Source: Pseudobdellovibrionaceae bacterium | GTDB taxonomy: Bacteria; Bdellovibrionota; Bdellovibrionia; Bdellovibrionales; UBA1609 | Direction of reading: 5' to 3' | DNA length: 64,000 bases | Assembly: GCA_947444305.1 (NCBI GenBank) | Contig: CANEZP010000003.1 | Span: 186,001 to 250,000, forward strand | Shown: in pieces, positions 55,556 to 61,728 of the stretch | Layout: every line of letters starts with the position of its first letter | Numbering within the stretch: position 1 is the first letter of the stretch | Program-made: the position numbers and the translations under genes | The notes under the pieces: model-generated | Databases searched by the model: none | Seen by the model: the letters and a program-made list of their open reading frames with translations, nothing else | What the model was told of the DNA's origin: nothing

Positions 55556-56020
55556 TTAGTTCGTCGTGGGTGGCTGGAAGGGCTCAAACCTTTGACTGCC
55601 GGGATTGTAACGGAAAACGTTGAGGTGGGGAACCAATTGATTATCGAACGAAGGGGCAAGTAATTCCATTTTGCCGTCGCCATCAACATCGGCGATGGCC
55701 AAGCGGGTCACGTGCCCTTGGTAGTTGAACAGCCCGTCGTGCTTATCCGGCAGCAGGATGCGATCGATCATTTTGGATTCGCCGTTCGCTTCGATTTTCA
55801 ATACTTCGACGAAGAGACCGTCTTCGTTACGATACTTGATCACCTTCGACGCCGAACCGTCCCCGAGCAAGTCCCCTTCGGCGGTGGCCAATACCTCGCG
55901 GCCGGGATGGGCGATAAAGTTTTGTACCTTCGCGCGCACCGAAGGCGTGAGGGCTGCGGCCAACAAGATCGCGGTGACGAGAAGGAAGAAACTAAAGATG
56001 ATCCAGCGTTGCGCAGACAT
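55556..56020 (-). CDS. Small membrane-anchored protein with an FG-GAP/EF-hand-like loop
   Basis: 154 residues from the ATG at 56020. One N-terminal membrane helix (WIIFSFFLLVTAILLAAALT) anchors a beta-rich periplasmic domain. IADVDGDGKMELLAP is a calcium-loop repeat of FG-GAP/VCBS type, and EGDLLGDGSASKV looks like an earlier, weaker copy. Function unknown; integrin-like propeller blades are usually longer. It is followed by the palindrome at 55516. Confidence 0.65.
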   Translation of the reverse strand: MSAQRWIIFSFFLLVTAILLAAALTPSVRAKVQNFIAHPGREVLATAEGDLLGDGSASKVIKYRNEDGLFVEVLKIEANGESKMIDRILLPDKHDGLFNYQGHVTRLAIADVDGDGKMELLAPSFDNQLVPHLNVFRYNPGSQRFEPFQPPTTN

Positions 56021-56040
56021 GGTCCAATTCAAGCAAACTT

Positions 56041-56745
56041 TTATGCTTTGAGCACGACAAAACTGTATTGGCGCCCGGCCCGCTGCTTATCACGGCGGAA
56101 TGAGAAATAAAGTTCGTCGGCTACTGTGTCGCTAAGCTGCTCATGTATTTCGAGGTCTGAACCGAAAGTTTCGCGAAGCTGACGACGGACTAATTCCGTA
56201 AGGTCGAAATACTTTTTTAAAGGATCGGGGTGCGTACCTTCAAGCTCGGCGCCGCCGGGTAGAACCGCCGAAAGTTGAGAAGCGACGTCCAGCCCAACTT
56301 CGAAGCTCGCTTTCATAATGTGCGGGCCGATAGCCGCCGCCGATGGTGAGCGAGGTGCGAAGGCAACTCGAGACGCCGCAACGATATTCTGCGCGGTACC
56401 ACGCCAGCCTGAATGAATCGCGCATGCGACCTCGCGATTGGCAAGCAGAATGGGCGTGCAATCTGCGGATTGCGAAACGAGCGCTAAATTTTTCTTCGAG
56501 GTGTAGTGAGCATCGGCTTCGGTTTCTATTCCCGCATCGGCTAATACGACGGCGCGGCCGTGCACCTGTTTAAGATAAGCAAACTCATATTGCGGGAAAT
56601 ATTCTTTAAGCGTGGCACGGTCACCATGGCGAGTACCGAAGAAGAAATACGCTTCGTCGGTTTCGAAACTGAAGCCGATCGTACGGTCCGCGAATATTTC
56701 GGGCTTAAACAACGTGCGCCGCCCGCGCCATCTGAGCGAGCTCAT
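56041..56745 (-). CDS. pgeF: PgeF/YfiH-family (LACC1-like) purine nucleoside phosphorylase/polyphenol oxidase
   Basis: 234 residues from the ATG at 56745. Metal-site residues include the His of QVHGRAVVL, the Cys in SADCTPILL and the His in AIHSGWRGTAQNI. The family was named polyphenol oxidase, but bacterial members edit peptidoglycan precursors and LACC1 cleaves adenosine and other nucleosides. The start overlaps rluD by 41 nt, a frequent neighbour pair. Confidence 0.88.
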   Translation of the reverse strand: MSSLRWRGRRTLFKPEIFADRTIGFSFETDEAYFFFGTRHGDRATLKEYFPQYEFAYLKQVHGRAVVLADAGIETEADAHYTSKKNLALVSQSADCTPILLANREVACAIHSGWRGTAQNIVAASRVAFAPRSPSAAAIGPHIMKASFEVGLDVASQLSAVLPGGAELEGTHPDPLKKYFDLTELVRRQLRETFGSDLEIHEQLSDTVADELYFSFRRDKQRAGRQYSFVVLKA

Positions 56746-57637
56746 CCGGCCATTCCGCTTTGAATAGGAGTTCTTGCTTTGTACGGGGATGAACGAAGCC
56801 AAGCTCGCACGCGTGCAATGCCATTCGGGTAACGAAATTCAACTTTTTATCTTTCACGCGTGCGCCGTAAATCGGATCGCCGAGAATCGGTAAACCCTTT
56901 TCGGATAAGTGAACGCGGATTTGGTGCGTGCGGCCGGTTTCGAGTTTAAGTTGTAGCCACGAGTAATCATGATTCGACTGAATGGTCTTGTAGTGCGTGA
57001 TCGCGACTTTGCCTTTAGTTTCATGCGAAGCGAAACGCTTCCGATCCGATGGATGGCGTGCGAGCAAAGTTTTGATCGTACCGTCGCGCCCGCTCGGCCG
57101 GTGATGCACGAGTGCCCAGTAAATCCGGTGGGTCGTTTTATCTTTGAACTGCCTGGCCAAGCTTAAATGAGCCAAATCATTCTTCGCGACCACGAGAATT
57201 CCGCTGGTGTCGCGGTCGAGGCGGTGAACGATGCCCGGGCGCATTTCGTTGAAGCCCATGGCGAGGTCCTTCGTGTGATGCAAAAGAATATTAACGAGCG
57301 TGTCTTGCGCGTGTCCCGCGGCGGGGTGAACGACTAAGCCCGCCGGCTTGTTCACGACGATTAAATCGGAATCTTCAAACAGGATCGCGAGGGGTGCATC
57401 CCAAGCGCTAAGCCCTACCGGTTCGGCCGCCGGTATTTCGATCTGAACGATCATTCCTGCCGAAATTTTTTGCGAAGCCTTTAAACGTACGCCGGAAACG
57501 GTCACGAGCCCGCGATCGATTAGTTCGGCCGCGCGCGAGCGTGAGGGAATAAAATCGAGATAGCTCAGCCATTTGTCTAAGCGCTGGCTAGATTGCTCGG
57601 TGTTAACGGTAATGTTGTGGATCGTCTTGTCGCTCAA
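56705..57637 (-). CDS. rluD: 23S rRNA pseudouridine synthase RluD
   Basis: 310 residues. An N-terminal S4 RNA-binding domain (QRLDKWLSYLDFIPSRSRAA) precedes the RluA/RluD catalytic domain with the invariant Asp in RPGIVHRLDRDTSGILVV. The C-terminus has KLETGRTHQIRVHLSEKG. It makes pseudouridines in helix 69 of 23S rRNA, the substrate that RlmH (also in this window) then methylates. The start overlaps the J-like/HTH gene by 4 nt. Confidence 0.93.
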   Translation of the reverse strand: MSDKTIHNITVNTEQSSQRLDKWLSYLDFIPSRSRAAELIDRGLVTVSGVRLKASQKISAGMIVQIEIPAAEPVGLSAWDAPLAILFEDSDLIVVNKPAGLVVHPAAGHAQDTLVNILLHHTKDLAMGFNEMRPGIVHRLDRDTSGILVVAKNDLAHLSLARQFKDKTTHRIYWALVHHRPSGRDGTIKTLLARHPSDRKRFASHETKGKVAITHYKTIQSNHDYSWLQLKLETGRTHQIRVHLSEKGLPILGDPIYGARVKDKKLNFVTRMALHACELGFVHPRTKQELLFKAEWPDELAQMARAAHVV

Positions 57638-58305
57638 GATCTCTTTGACCGGAAATATTTCATGTAAGCGTCGGAGATCTTACGTTCGTTCAATCCGAGT
57701 AGGCGTGCCATCTGGACGACGAATCCGCGCGTGAAGACGGCCACGGGTAAGGCCTCGAGATCATTCGCCTCAAGTGCAACTAACGTCGACTTAATGACAC
57801 GAATTTCTTCACTCATTTGATCGAGCGTAACGCCTTTGTACAAACGGATTTTTTGGATGAACGGTCCGTCGATTTCTTGGGCTTGCTCAATTTCGGTTTC
57901 GATATCAGGTTTAACTTCGTAAACCGAAAACTTCGTACGCGAGAATCCGGTAGGCAAACTTTCTTGTTTGCCGGCCGAAGTCTTTACTGGGCCGATCCAT
58001 TGATCTTGCGAACGTGCGCGCGCGGGTTCTTGCGCCGTGGGCTTTGGTGGCGGCGCTTTAGCCAAGCCTATCTTCACGTCATACTCTTTGCGGCGGGCTT
58101 GGTGCGAAAGTGTTTGGTACGCTTCCTCAACGAGCGACATCAACTGCAATGCCTCTTCGGGAGTAAACATGCTGTAGATCGCGGGACTGTTGGGTGAGTA
58201 AGTCGCGCGTGCGCGCTGGTAGGCATTGTAAATATCGGTGGGCCCCGCAACCGGCGAGACTTCTAAAAGTTCGTAGTAAGTTTGACCGTCGTAGCGCTCA
58301 CTCAT
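57634..58305 (-). CDS. Degenerate J-domain plus RodZ-like helix-turn-helix protein
   Basis: 223 residues. Residues about 8-75 align with a J domain (TYYELLEVSPVAGPTDIYNA), but the HPD triplet needed to stimulate DnaK is absent; the helix II-III loop reads YSPNSPA. Residues about 75-140 are a Pro-rich linker. Residues about 145-223 look like the RodZ-type HTH (GVTLDQMSEEIRVIKSTLVA, FTRGFVVQMARLLGLNERKI). No membrane segment is seen. It is probably a protein-interaction module, and the MinD-like ATPase gene is directly upstream. Confidence 0.8.
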   Translation of the reverse strand: MSERYDGQTYYELLEVSPVAGPTDIYNAYQRARATYSPNSPAIYSMFTPEEALQLMSLVEEAYQTLSHQARRKEYDVKIGLAKAPPPKPTAQEPARARSQDQWIGPVKTSAGKQESLPTGFSRTKFSVYEVKPDIETEIEQAQEIDGPFIQKIRLYKGVTLDQMSEEIRVIKSTLVALEANDLEALPVAVFTRGFVVQMARLLGLNERKISDAYMKYFRSKRS

Positions 58306-58354
58306 TTAACAATTCCAAAAAGGAAAATCCGAACCGGTAACTTACGGTCCGTGA

Positions 58355-58373
58355 GGGACGAAATCATCGTCCC
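58355..58373 (-). repeat. 19-nt palindrome between the MinD-like and J/HTH genes
   Basis: GGGACGA / TCGTCCC are perfect 7-nt arms around a 5-nt loop. On the minus strand it is flanked by TTAC and followed by TCAC, like the copy after rpmA. Probable member of the intergenic family. Confidence 0.55.
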
Positions 58374-58379
58374 GTAATG

Positions 58380-59348
58380 TTAGGCCGCTTTGTTTTGCGA
58401 CTGGGGCTTCGCTATTTTACGAGCGATCCCCATGAGTTGAGCGTACAGGTGACTCTGGCGATTCGCCATTAAAAGATGATGCTTCTGGCGCAGTGACTGC
58501 CATACCGCATTATCGTATTCGAGTCCGCCGAGGAACTCGCAGGGGAATCCGAAATATTTATTGCAGACGCTTTGTAGCGCGTAGCCCATATCGACTTCTT
58601 GGCGCGTACGAGCTTGGTTCAAAACAATTTTGTAACCGAGATCAGCCATGATGTTCTTCAACTTCATGCCGAGTACGGGTTCACGGTCGACAAGGACGCG
58701 GATCAAGTCCGACGGATTTTTAATGCCGTGTGTATCACGGTTCGAAAGTAATTCGTCGATTTGCGTTTTCAATTGCAGCTGATGTTCGTAGCGACGCAAT
58801 TTGCGGAAGAAGCTGGCTTTCAAGAAACGGTAAGCGTTCTCGATGCTCGACGGTTCAGGAGTAAACACAACGACTTTATGCTTCGCCATGAGGAAGAAAT
58901 CGAGGGTCGCGTGATGAGTACCTGCACTAAGGTCTAGTACGGTGAAATCGGTCTTATGACGGTAGATCGCCGACATGATGCGCGAGCGTTGGATTTCATC
59001 GATGTTCGCAACGTCCATCGCTTCGCTCGAACCGCTTAACAAGCTAAGTTTGGGCCAGTGGGTCGTTTGAATCAGCGAGCTAAGTTCGGCCTGGGGATCG
59101 AGGATGAATTCGTTAATACCTTTGTTGCTCAAGGGTAAACCGAGCGAGGTATGAAGGTTCGCGCCGCCGAGATCGAGATCAATCGCGGTTACGTCGTAAC
59201 CCAACTGCGAAAGAAAGATGGCGATGCTCGAGCTTATGAAGGACTTACCGACGCCGCCTTTACCACCGCCAACGGCGATAATCGTCGACCCGGGTTCAAT
59301 CCGCCCGCGCAGAGGAGAAAAATCAGCATTTATTAAATTCGGTTTCAC
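58380..59348 (-). CDS. MinD/ParA-family ATPase (FlhG-like)
   Basis: 322 residues. The deviant Walker A is GGGKGGVGKSF, followed by the switch region DLDLGGANLHTSLGL. It has the extended family core (LDLSAGTHHATLDFF) and a long C-terminal helical part ending in a Lys-rich stretch. Such ATPases position flagella, pili or other polar structures. There is no flagellar cluster adjacent and no clear C-terminal amphipathic membrane anchor. It is transcribed toward the J-like/HTH gene (74 nt apart), possibly a functional pair. Confidence 0.87.
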   Translation of the reverse strand: MKPNLINADFSPLRGRIEPGSTIIAVGGGKGGVGKSFISSSIAIFLSQLGYDVTAIDLDLGGANLHTSLGLPLSNKGINEFILDPQAELSSLIQTTHWPKLSLLSGSSEAMDVANIDEIQRSRIMSAIYRHKTDFTVLDLSAGTHHATLDFFLMAKHKVVVFTPEPSSIENAYRFLKASFFRKLRRYEHQLQLKTQIDELLSNRDTHGIKNPSDLIRVLVDREPVLGMKLKNIMADLGYKIVLNQARTRQEVDMGYALQSVCNKYFGFPCEFLGGLEYDNAVWQSLRQKHHLLMANRQSHLYAQLMGIARKIAKPQSQNKAA

Positions 59349-59378: not shown

Positions 59379-60071
59379 TTACGGAAGGGGCTTCAATAGT
59401 CCCTTCTTCAATTTCTCTTCGGCTTCAGATCCCCGGACATAAAGTGGTTTGACACTTTTCCATGAGGAAAATTGCGCAAAATGCGACATCGCGACTAAAG
59501 TTTTGGCCGCGGAATCACCCCTGGTATCGACATCGGGCACGACGAAAGTTTTGTCGAAGGCACCGGCCGCCTGGACTTCGCCCATATCGCCCGAAAAGGG
59601 CTGGACCATTGTCTGCATCGCGCCGGAAACTTTCCGGTACGCTCCGGCGTAGAAGAACTTCTGGATCGCCTTCATCACGATCATCGCGGATTGATTCTCG
59701 GCCGTGTTTTCAAAAGCGAGGACTTCTAGCGATGAAAAAGTCGCCACCGGTTTCTCTAAAGCGTAGGCCAGGGTACGAATCAGGTTAACGCCTACCCGGA
59801 TGCCGGTAAAAGAGCCGGGCCCCGTATTCACGGCGAAATGAGTAAGGTCGTGCAAAACTAAACCGGCCGCGGCGAGCGCCCGACCGACTTCAAGAGTCGC
59901 GACTTCGGAGTGCATCGCCAGTTTGTTCCAACGGGCTTCGGCTAAGATTTTAAAGGGTTGGCCGGGAAGAAATTCGGCGATGGCGAGTGAGCCGGTCGCG
60001 GTCGAGGTATCGACCGCGAGTAGTTTTGCCGGAAGATTACCAGCGATTAGCGATGAGGTTGCTGATGTCAT
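59379..60071 (-). CDS. tsaB: tRNA t6A biosynthesis protein TsaB
   Basis: 230 residues from the ATG at 60071. The actin-like fold begins AKLLAVDTSTATGSLAIAEF and has FAVNTGPGSFTGIRVGVNLI, the TsaB signature, with SLEVLAFENT after it. TsaB is the non-catalytic partner of TsaD in making threonylcarbamoyl-adenosine in tRNAs. The 5' end overlaps rseP by 35 nt. An in-frame TTG four codons upstream is possible. Confidence 0.88.
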   Translation of the reverse strand: MTSATSSLIAGNLPAKLLAVDTSTATGSLAIAEFLPGQPFKILAEARWNKLAMHSEVATLEVGRALAAAGLVLHDLTHFAVNTGPGSFTGIRVGVNLIRTLAYALEKPVATFSSLEVLAFENTAENQSAMIVMKAIQKFFYAGAYRKVSGAMQTMVQPFSGDMGEVQAAGAFDKTFVVPDVDTRGDSAAKTLVAMSHFAQFSSWKSVKPLYVRGSEAEEKLKKGLLKPLP

Positions 60072-61728
60072 TATAGAAGGCAAATACCATCAAAAACATC
60101 AAAAGCATAAGGCCAACTTGCTGAGCGAGCTCCATCTTACGCATGGATACGGGTGCCCCACGCAAGCCTTCGATCGTGTAAAAAACAAGGTGACCGCCGT
60201 CAAGGATCGGTACGGGCAATAAGTTCAACAAGAACAGATTGATCGAAATAATCGCCATCGTGTGGAGGAAAGTGCTTAGGCCCGCGGCGAAGGAATGCGA
60301 AGCCACGCGGCCGATGGTGATTACGCCACCGACGTTTTTAGCCGAGACTTCACCCTGAACCAAACGCACCAAGCTCATCACGACAAATTCGGTCCACTTC
60401 GCGGTCTCTTTGATTCCGTGGACGAACATTTTCGCAGGATTCGTCACGCGATAATAAACGGGATCAGGACCGGCGGGGAAGAAGCCCGAGACGATTCCGA
60501 CCGTGAAGCGTTTTTCGGCTTGGCCTTTCATCGACATCAGTTCCGTCATTTCGGGTTTGATCTTAAAGGTCTTCTCTTCGCCGTTACGTAAAACTACGAA
60601 ATCGAGACCGTCGCTCGTCGAATCGAAAGATTTCACGTGCGTAAGAACGTCGGACCAAACATTTACGGGATCGTTGCCGATGCGTACGACTTTATCTTTA
60701 GCTTGAACGCCGGCTTTGTCGGCCGGGGAGTCTTTCTTAAGCTGGTAAATATATAACTCGGCCGGTTCGATGCCGAGCGAGGCGAAGATGTCGTCCCCGG
60801 CTTTGAAGCCGGCGGGCAACTTCACTTCAACCGGGCGAGCCGCGTCTTTCTTCTCGGCGTGCTCGACGTCTTTAACTTCAAATTTGATCGATTCAGGATT
60901 CGCGGCCACGGCTTCGGTCAGCAGCGGTTTGAGTTCGCGCCAGTAGTTGACCTTTTTACCGTTAACCGAAGTCACCAAATTCAGAGATTGAAGACCCGCG
61001 GCGCCGGCCAAGCTCTTCGGGTCACGCACGCCGATAACGGTCGAGCGTGATTCTTGGCTTAATCCTTCGATCGCGCCGACTTGGCGGTCGCTGCTAAAAA
61101 TATTATCGTTTTCGCCGACGCCGACGGAGACGTCGAATTTAAGCGGCGAGCTCTCGCCGGGACGTTCGACCACGACTTCCGTCGCGCGGCCGCCGGAACC
61201 TTCGATCTTTTGCATGACGTGCATCCAAGTCGGGGTCGGCTGGTTTGCGACGGAAACAATTTTGTCCCCCGAGCGGAAGCCCTGCTCGAAAGCCTTCGTG
61301 CCTTCTTTTACGTCGCCGGTAAAAGGGCCGGCCATTTCTTGACCTAGGCCTCCGATAACGGTGAACAGGACGATCGCGAAAAGTAAATTCATCAACGGGC
61401 CGGCAAGTACGATCCAGATTCGCTGCATGACGGGCTTATGCAAGAAAGCGTACTTGCGTTCTTCGGGCGGAACATCGGCCGTGGGATCGTCGCCGTACAT
61501 TTTGACGTAACCACCCAGCGGGATGATCGATAGAGCGTAGGTCGTGTCGCCACGTTTGAAGCTCAAAATCTTTTTGCCGAAGCCGAGCGAGAATGTCTCG
61601 ACACGAACGCCGAAAAATTTTGCGACTAAGAAATGTCCCATTTCATGCACGAAGATGAGTAATCCGAGCAAAATGAAAAAGGGTGCGAAATTAGCGAAGG
61701 CGGATTGGATCAGGCTGATAATGTTCAT
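60037..61728 (-). CDS. rseP: Site-2 membrane metalloprotease RseP with three PDZ domains
   Basis: 563 residues from the ATG at 61728 (E. coli RseP is 450). The active site HEMGH is at H28-H32, and LNLLPVPILDGGHL with the second motif is near the C-terminus. Between the helices lie three PDZ-like modules: GFRSGDKIVSVANQ, AAGLQSLNLVTSVNGK and KAGVQAKDKVVRIGND. The family normally has two at most. It cuts anti-sigma factors or signal peptides in the membrane. Gene order uppS-cdsA-rseP-tsaB is usual, but dxr is missing between cdsA and rseP. Confidence 0.93.
   Translation of the reverse strand: MNIISLIQSAFANFAPFFILLGLLIFVHEMGHFLVAKFFGVRVETFSLGFGKKILSFKRGDTTYALSIIPLGGYVKMYGDDPTADVPPEERKYAFLHKPVMQRIWIVLAGPLMNLLFAIVLFTVIGGLGQEMAGPFTGDVKEGTKAFEQGFRSGDKIVSVANQPTPTWMHVMQKIEGSGGRATEVVVERPGESSPLKFDVSVGVGENDNIFSSDRQVGAIEGLSQESRSTVIGVRDPKSLAGAAGLQSLNLVTSVNGKKVNYWRELKPLLTEAVAANPESIKFEVKDVEHAEKKDAARPVEVKLPAGFKAGDDIFASLGIEPAELYIYQLKKDSPADKAGVQAKDKVVRIGNDPVNVWSDVLTHVKSFDSTSDGLDFVVLRNGEEKTFKIKPEMTELMSMKGQAEKRFTVGIVSGFFPAGPDPVYYRVTNPAKMFVHGIKETAKWTEFVVMSLVRLVQGEVSAKNVGGVITIGRVASHSFAAGLSTFLHTMAIISINLFLLNLLPVPILDGGHLVFYTIEGLRGAPVSMRKMELAQQVGLMLLMFLMVFAFYNDISNLIANRW

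Follow-up and report, generated by a model that had tools for sequence, protein, structure and literature searches.

A MinD/FlhG-family ATPase and an HPD-less J-domain protein with a RodZ-type helix-turn-helix: a conserved gene pair and probable switch-adaptor module of several bacterial phyla

A P-loop ATPase of the MinD/FlhG family and a soluble protein that joins a J domain lacking HPD to a RodZ-type helix-turn-helix (hereafter J-HTH) are encoded as a conserved pair in Bdellovibrionota and beyond. We consider it probable that the two form an ancient ATPase-plus-adaptor module, in which a J domain, its DnaK-facing loop remodelled, docks a MinD-like ATPase and thereby couples it to an output at the envelope or cytoskeleton. 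The model is based on the co-occurrence and adjacency of the genes, their fusion in some genomes, the exchange of the output arm, the absence of HPD, and the decay of the J domain where the ATPase is missing. A module of ATPase switch and J/HTH adaptor had been proposed in the preliminary description of this DNA, and conserved co-occurrence, with 187 adjacent pairs, supports it.

In the window, the 64,000-nucleotide stretch analysed here, the ATPase (322 aa, GTG start; identified from its open reading frame, Pfam and PDB relatives) is encoded at 58380–59348 on the minus strand and J-HTH (223 aa, with Pfam DnaJ and HTH_25 domains and no transmembrane stretch) downstream of it at 57634–58305 on the same strand, which confirms both reading frames. 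They lie between tsaB upstream (59379–60083, minus strand), whose position is conserved across the order, and rluD downstream (56705–57637, minus strand), which is conserved in the order and at many Myxococcota loci too. With gene names assigned from translations, the neighbours in the window are the housekeeping genes frr, uppS, cdsA, rseP, tsaB, rluD and pgeF, and relatives in the order keep the arrangement frr-uppS-cdsA-rseP-tsaB-ATPase-JHTH-rluD-pgeF; as originally noted, no flagellar or pilus genes adjoin the pair among these neighbours. A small protein encoded at 55556–56032 has relatives near pgeF in many members of the order. The pair appears to be undescribed in print: a literature search of an open-access library found no paper describing it and no localisation data for its ATPase.

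The spacer between the two genes is peculiar to this strain. A palindrome had been reported there, and a hairpin (GGGACGA/TCGTCCC) does exist at 58355–58373 within a hairpin-rich segment (58306–58382; z = −3.9 for the 77-nt RNA fold). No role for it is supported: the intergenic gap is 74 nt in the window, while three genus-mates have gaps of 10, 13 and 17 nt, too short to hold it, and the median over the 187 pairs is 5 nt. A regulatory element was ruled out on this ground, as the palindrome is not conserved even within the genus.

The ATPase matches Pfam ParA, CbiA and AAA_31 and scores 65.8 bits against the NCBIfam MinD equivalog, below its cut-off of 212.9. It has the features that define the ParA/MinD superfamily, namely a deviant Walker A motif with signature lysine (residues 27–36; 59241–59270, minus strand) together with the Walker A' and switch II aspartates. 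These residues are near-invariant: K30 is present in 182 and K35 in 183 of 184 aligned rows, the remainder being gaps, D57 and D59 in 183 and D139 in all 184. AlphaFold2 models of both proteins were built with alignments of relatives, and that of the ATPase (mean pLDDT 87.3, pTM 0.86) has FleN and FlhG, including FleN-FleQ complexes, as its top-ranked Foldseek matches; FlhG/FleN are its closest PDB relatives by predicted fold as well as by sequence. The protein is on this evidence predicted to be a catalytically conserved switch of the MinD/FlhG family. Its PDB sequence matches to FlhG and MinD end near residue 180, and a family-specific region that is helical in the model follows at about residues 183–238 (58635–58802, minus strand). 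Two genomes, G197 (L192) and G269 (L188), encode a 262-aa form without this helical insert, still beside a J-HTH protein with an intact A-x-Y-S motif; other members of their genus have lost the ATPase.

In canonical J domains the HPD motif lies in the loop between helices II and III, where it is presented to DnaK. The J domain of the window protein (residues 9–77; 58075–58281, minus strand) is recognised by Pfam DnaJ above the gathering cut-off (E 9e-8, residues 9–76) and by its fold, while its matches to NCBIfam DnaJ equivalogs are far under cut-off. Its helix II/III loop reads Y-S-P-N-S-P-A-I-Y-S, with S-P-N at the canonical HPD position (residues 37–39; 58189–58197, minus strand) and A-I-Y-S at residues 42–45 (58171–58182, minus strand), where the model places a short extra helix (residues 41–45) that we propose, together with the motif counts given below, as a candidate docking site for the ATPase. 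The J-HTH model has a mean pLDDT of 88.5 with a low-confidence linker at about residues 85–110; J domains and the RodZ-type YmfM rank highest in Foldseek, where the small, separate domains keep every match from passing E 0.001. The preliminary description had noted the missing HPD and had taken the J fold to serve protein contact rather than DnaK stimulation. The homologues support both statements: HPD occurs in the loop of none of 36 relatives and none of 187 ATPase-linked J domains, the two HPD strings found elsewhere in these chains falling outside the helix II/III loop, and with the pair itself conserved this supports a J domain that would act in protein contact.

The pair is not specific to one strain. 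Within the phylum the ATPase is found at E ≤ 1e-30 in 242 of 290 genomes and J-HTH matches at E ≤ 0.001 in 289 of 290, the latter including ordinary J and RodZ proteins, and a survey of the phylum and beyond yielded 187 non-redundant adjacent ATPase-to-J pairs on the same strand. Counted by eye among 58 relatives, the ATPase (E ≤ 1e-30) occurs in 40 and J-HTH in 50: both genes in 40, J-HTH alone in 10, the ATPase alone in none and neither in 8, the last being mostly reduced or incomplete genomes of 1.2–2.7 Mb. The expectation that the two would be found together across genomes was therefore upheld. As a fixed unit the pair fares less well, since co-occurrence is conserved but not obligatory. 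In the ATPase-less genomes the gene is gone from between tsaB and J-HTH, leaving no detectable remnant, and by anonymous family and genus labels it was lost independently no fewer than five or six times (f1/g20, f1/g25, part of f5, f7, part of f8/g33 and one f8/g37 genome). As J-HTH persists without the ATPase, it must have a function of its own.

To look outside the phylum, the ATPase motif P-T-S-I-E-N-A-Y-R-F was turned into a degenerate pattern with a GC bias, designed to avoid the window's group. It returned 27 stretches from Myxococcaceae, Archangium, SAR324, Lambdaproteobacteria, Acidobacteria and others, a few of them from that group. A J domain follows the ATPase at 24 of the 27 loci, and the other three end where it would start. 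Among 77 Myxococcota genomes, the 30 best J-HTH loci include 27 with the ATPase alongside; of the remaining three, L138 is cut by the end of the locus, L146 is an HTH fragment only, and L143 has no adjoining ATPase, its genome offering no ATPase match better than 2e-13. Searches started from the ATPase side, irrespective of J, found the family at E ≤ 1e-50 in 9 of the 60 Acidobacteriota-group genomes searched and, in the phylum to which G306 belongs, in 18 of 59. At 32 ATPase-family loci taken from these two phyla, a J domain is adjoining or fused in 19, none with HPD, and missing from 13, of which 12 fall into one cluster in a quick ATPase tree of 67 rows. The J-less loci, judged from ten neighbour proteins at seven of them, adjoin PilZ, polysaccharide and other genes; J-less relatives at L310 and L311, and weakly L315, sit beside PilZ-domain proteins, which suggests a c-di-GMP-linked branch of the ATPase family.

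Fused genes and exchanged partners identify the part of J-HTH that goes with the ATPase. In the Acidobacteriota-group set, the ATPase, J and HTH form a single frame in two genomes (L299 and L301), and one of these genomes also has a single ATPase-J frame (L291). The P-loops of L299 and L301 are altered, so these fused proteins may be catalytically impaired. At three further loci (L098:209-2287, L147:3298-5351 and L106:1-2009, the last read as a fusion from its sequence) the gene after the ATPase joins a J domain to a BY-kinase-like AAA_31 domain. Two of these loci, L098 and L147, belong to exopolysaccharide/exosortase operons, surrounded by Wzz/GNVR, sugar-transferase, and NusG-like or exosortase genes, and the J domains of these fusions lack HPD and contain A-x-Y-S. 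The HTH or BY-kinase-like part varies while the J domain is kept, and it is thus the J domain that constantly accompanies the ATPase.

In J-HTH the variable arm is a RodZ-type domain (residues 151–209; 57679–57855, minus strand), supported by structure-sequence alignment and matching Pfam HTH_25 above the gathering cut-off (E 1.7e-15, residues 151–209), and the reported fusion of such an HTH to a J domain is confirmed. It aligns to MreB-bound RodZ (2WUS_R, which we take to be the Thermotoga maritima protein), to Staphylococcus aureus YmfM (3FYM) and to CT009 (4GQM). By spacing and alignment, F191 and F195 (57721–57735, minus strand) correspond to the aromatic pair of RodZ and CT009 needed for MreB binding, F60 and Y64 of Escherichia coli RodZ presumably mapping exactly onto them, and both positions carry aromatics in 163 of the 182 ATPase-linked proteins and in all 15 ATPase-less ones. 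PMC4047632 describes F60 and Y64 of E. coli RodZ and Y66 and F70 of CT009 as critical for MreB binding, and PMC5778138 provides, with Bacillus subtilis RodZ-MinJ, a precedent for a RodZ touching a Min system. J-HTH is nevertheless distinct from RodZ: the genome encodes its own membrane RodZ elsewhere, with a 19-aa hydropathy maximum of 2.8, whereas the J-HTH proteins have a median of 0.92, and only 3 of 182 reach 1.6 or more. At least six of the eight relatives without J-HTH have MreB, which therefore does not need it, leaving an obligatory MreB factor unsupported as a role for J-HTH.

A helix-turn-helix beside a relative of FleN could also mean transcription control, the HTH binding DNA and the MinD-like ATPase serving as anti-activator in the manner of FleN with FleQ. 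The nearest folds, FleN-FleQ complexes among them, and the positive charge of the HTH (mean net charge +4.1) agree with this. We nonetheless regard it as unlikely, since the HTH of the genome's own membrane RodZ is similarly charged (+3), HTH_25 matches RodZ HTHs and not DNA-bound ones, the MreB-contact aromatic pair is kept, and the ATPase-J combination is also joined to a BY-kinase-like output in exopolysaccharide loci. Nor is it at all probable that the genes are mere operon neighbours, held together without physical contact by the housekeeping genes tsaB and rluD; relatives in the order strongly conserve the arrangement of genes around the pair, but the pair is intact in other surroundings, beside LptF/G in SAR324, among exopolysaccharide genes and in other phyla, and ATPase-J fusions exist.

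Where the ATPase has been lost, the J domain has decayed more than the HTH has. Fifteen ATPase-less J-HTH proteins were compared with 182 ATPase-linked ones (the 187 pairs less five rows, three of them J-BY-kinase fusions and two not having both domains), each row being scored for J and HTH by models whose training left out its own 55% cluster. The J score is 79.6 bits in the ATPase-less and 98.9 in the linked proteins, as against 97.6 and 103.8 for the HTH, and the J residual given the HTH is negative in 15 of 15 ATPase-less rows (p 4e-7 over rows; 4.6e-4 over clusters, 7 versus 42), some ATPase-bearing Myxococcota rows also being low in J score. Taken family by family, the p values are 3e-4 for f1, 0.008 for f8 and 0.07 for f5, the last having just two ATPase-linked rows. 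In the A-x-Y motif, which was picked after inspection of the ATPase-less sequences, the alanine is present in 172 and the tyrosine in 178 of the 182 linked proteins versus 6 and 5 of the 15 ATPase-less ones, and A-x-[YF]-[STA] in 162 of 182 versus 3 of 15. In genus g33 both genomes whose ATPase is shortened read ALYS and the five ATPase-less ones ALSS, ALHS, ALFN, ALYT and ALYA; one ATPase-less row, L200, has an intact A-x-Y-S, and in the Acidobacteriota group and the phylum of G306 the tyrosine was counted by eye in about 13 of 19 J domains beside the ATPase.

Coevolution of the two proteins was analysed by mean-field DCA with 184 paired rows and 472 columns (Neff about 133); A200-J131 and A290-J50 came out as top inter-protein couplings. 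The latter resembles a salt-bridge swap; it is essentially one clade-level event, with one same-branch change and rank 2631 of 51852 in a tree-aware test, and as it is confined to one clade it was set aside as evidence of contact.

The J-domain data also bear on whether the protein is a degenerate co-chaperone, its J domain still serving DnaK or another Hsp70 and the ATPase a mere client or bystander. The modelled J fold is intact, but helix II, the basic DnaK-binding face of J domains, has a mean net charge of only +0.5, where four J domains that carry HPD have +2 to +4, the motif is missing from all 187, ordinary J proteins from genomes of the same survey (the chance matches L148–L151) carry it, and the J domain decays upon loss of the ATPase; we hold this reading to be very improbable. 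Scarcely any credence can be given to a second FlhG-type numbering system, flagellar or polar, for although the closest PDB relatives are FlhG and FleN, the FlhG-like proteins of six relatives form a clade of their own apart from the ATPase (100% SH-aLRT; quick tree, 67 rows), FlhF and its adjoining FlhG-like protein sit on contig C10, the ATPase is found, by an eye count, in about eight relatives without a strong FlhF match and is missing from about nine with one, and it is present in Myxococcaceae, which are not known to have flagella. The separate clade and the occurrence without a strong FlhF match contradict the earlier FlhG-like label and lead us to reject FlhG identity and a flagellar role.

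The data presented above lead us to favour the module of ATPase and adaptor, whose J domain is tied to the ATPase by the fusions, the J-BY-kinase-like loci and the decay after ATPase loss. The ATPase would act as a MinD/FlhG-family switch and J-HTH as its soluble adaptor. The remodelled loop, with its short helix and A-x-Y-S, would most likely dock the ATPase, and the RodZ-type HTH would serve as output arm, its most likely target being MreB or some other protein of the actin-like or envelope kind. Through cycles driven by ATP, the ATPase may then set the time or place at which the adaptor acts. A broader reading, that the J domain was retargeted from Hsp70 to a MinD-type ATPase, its HPD loop now an A-x-Y-S docking helix, and became a swappable adaptor to different envelope machines in several phyla (MreB through the RodZ-type HTH, exopolysaccharide export through the BY-kinase), is more tentative and in our judgement falls a little short of an even chance.

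ParA/MinD positioning ATPases with cognate adaptors include MinD-MinE, PomZ-PomX and McdA-McdB. The present pair resembles them in that its switch ATPase has a dedicated partner alongside; it differs in that the partner has a J fold, and a positioning role like theirs, at the pole or in cell division as the preliminary description suggested, would be a prediction. With FlhG/FleN and their partners FlhF/FleQ the ATPase shares its fold, closest solved relatives, deviant Walker A and catalytic residues, but it forms a separate clade, carries a helical insert, lies outside a flagellar cluster and has J-HTH as its partner. J-HTH has the HTH_25 domain and MreB-contact aromatic pair of RodZ, without the transmembrane segment or RodZ C-terminal domain and with a J domain in front; it has the J fold of DnaJ co-chaperones and HPD-less J-like proteins, with HPD lost, an A-x-Y-S helix in the loop and a proposed coupling to a non-Hsp70 ATPase. 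From the same lineage, Bdellovibrio ParA1-3 (Bd1326, Bd2331 and Bd3906) are likewise ATPases of the ParA superfamily (Milner et al. 2020, PMC7186360); going by the neighbours given in that paper, they are different genes in different surroundings, and identity with the present ATPase is ruled out.

On this view, annotation of these proteins as chaperones from their DnaJ domain is misleading. If the proposed model is correct, a J domain has been re-tooled as a coupling device for another ATPase, and predatory and social bacteria (Bdellovibrionota and Myxococcota) would own a hitherto unnoticed switch by which a MinD-like ATPase is connected with the MreB/envelope side.
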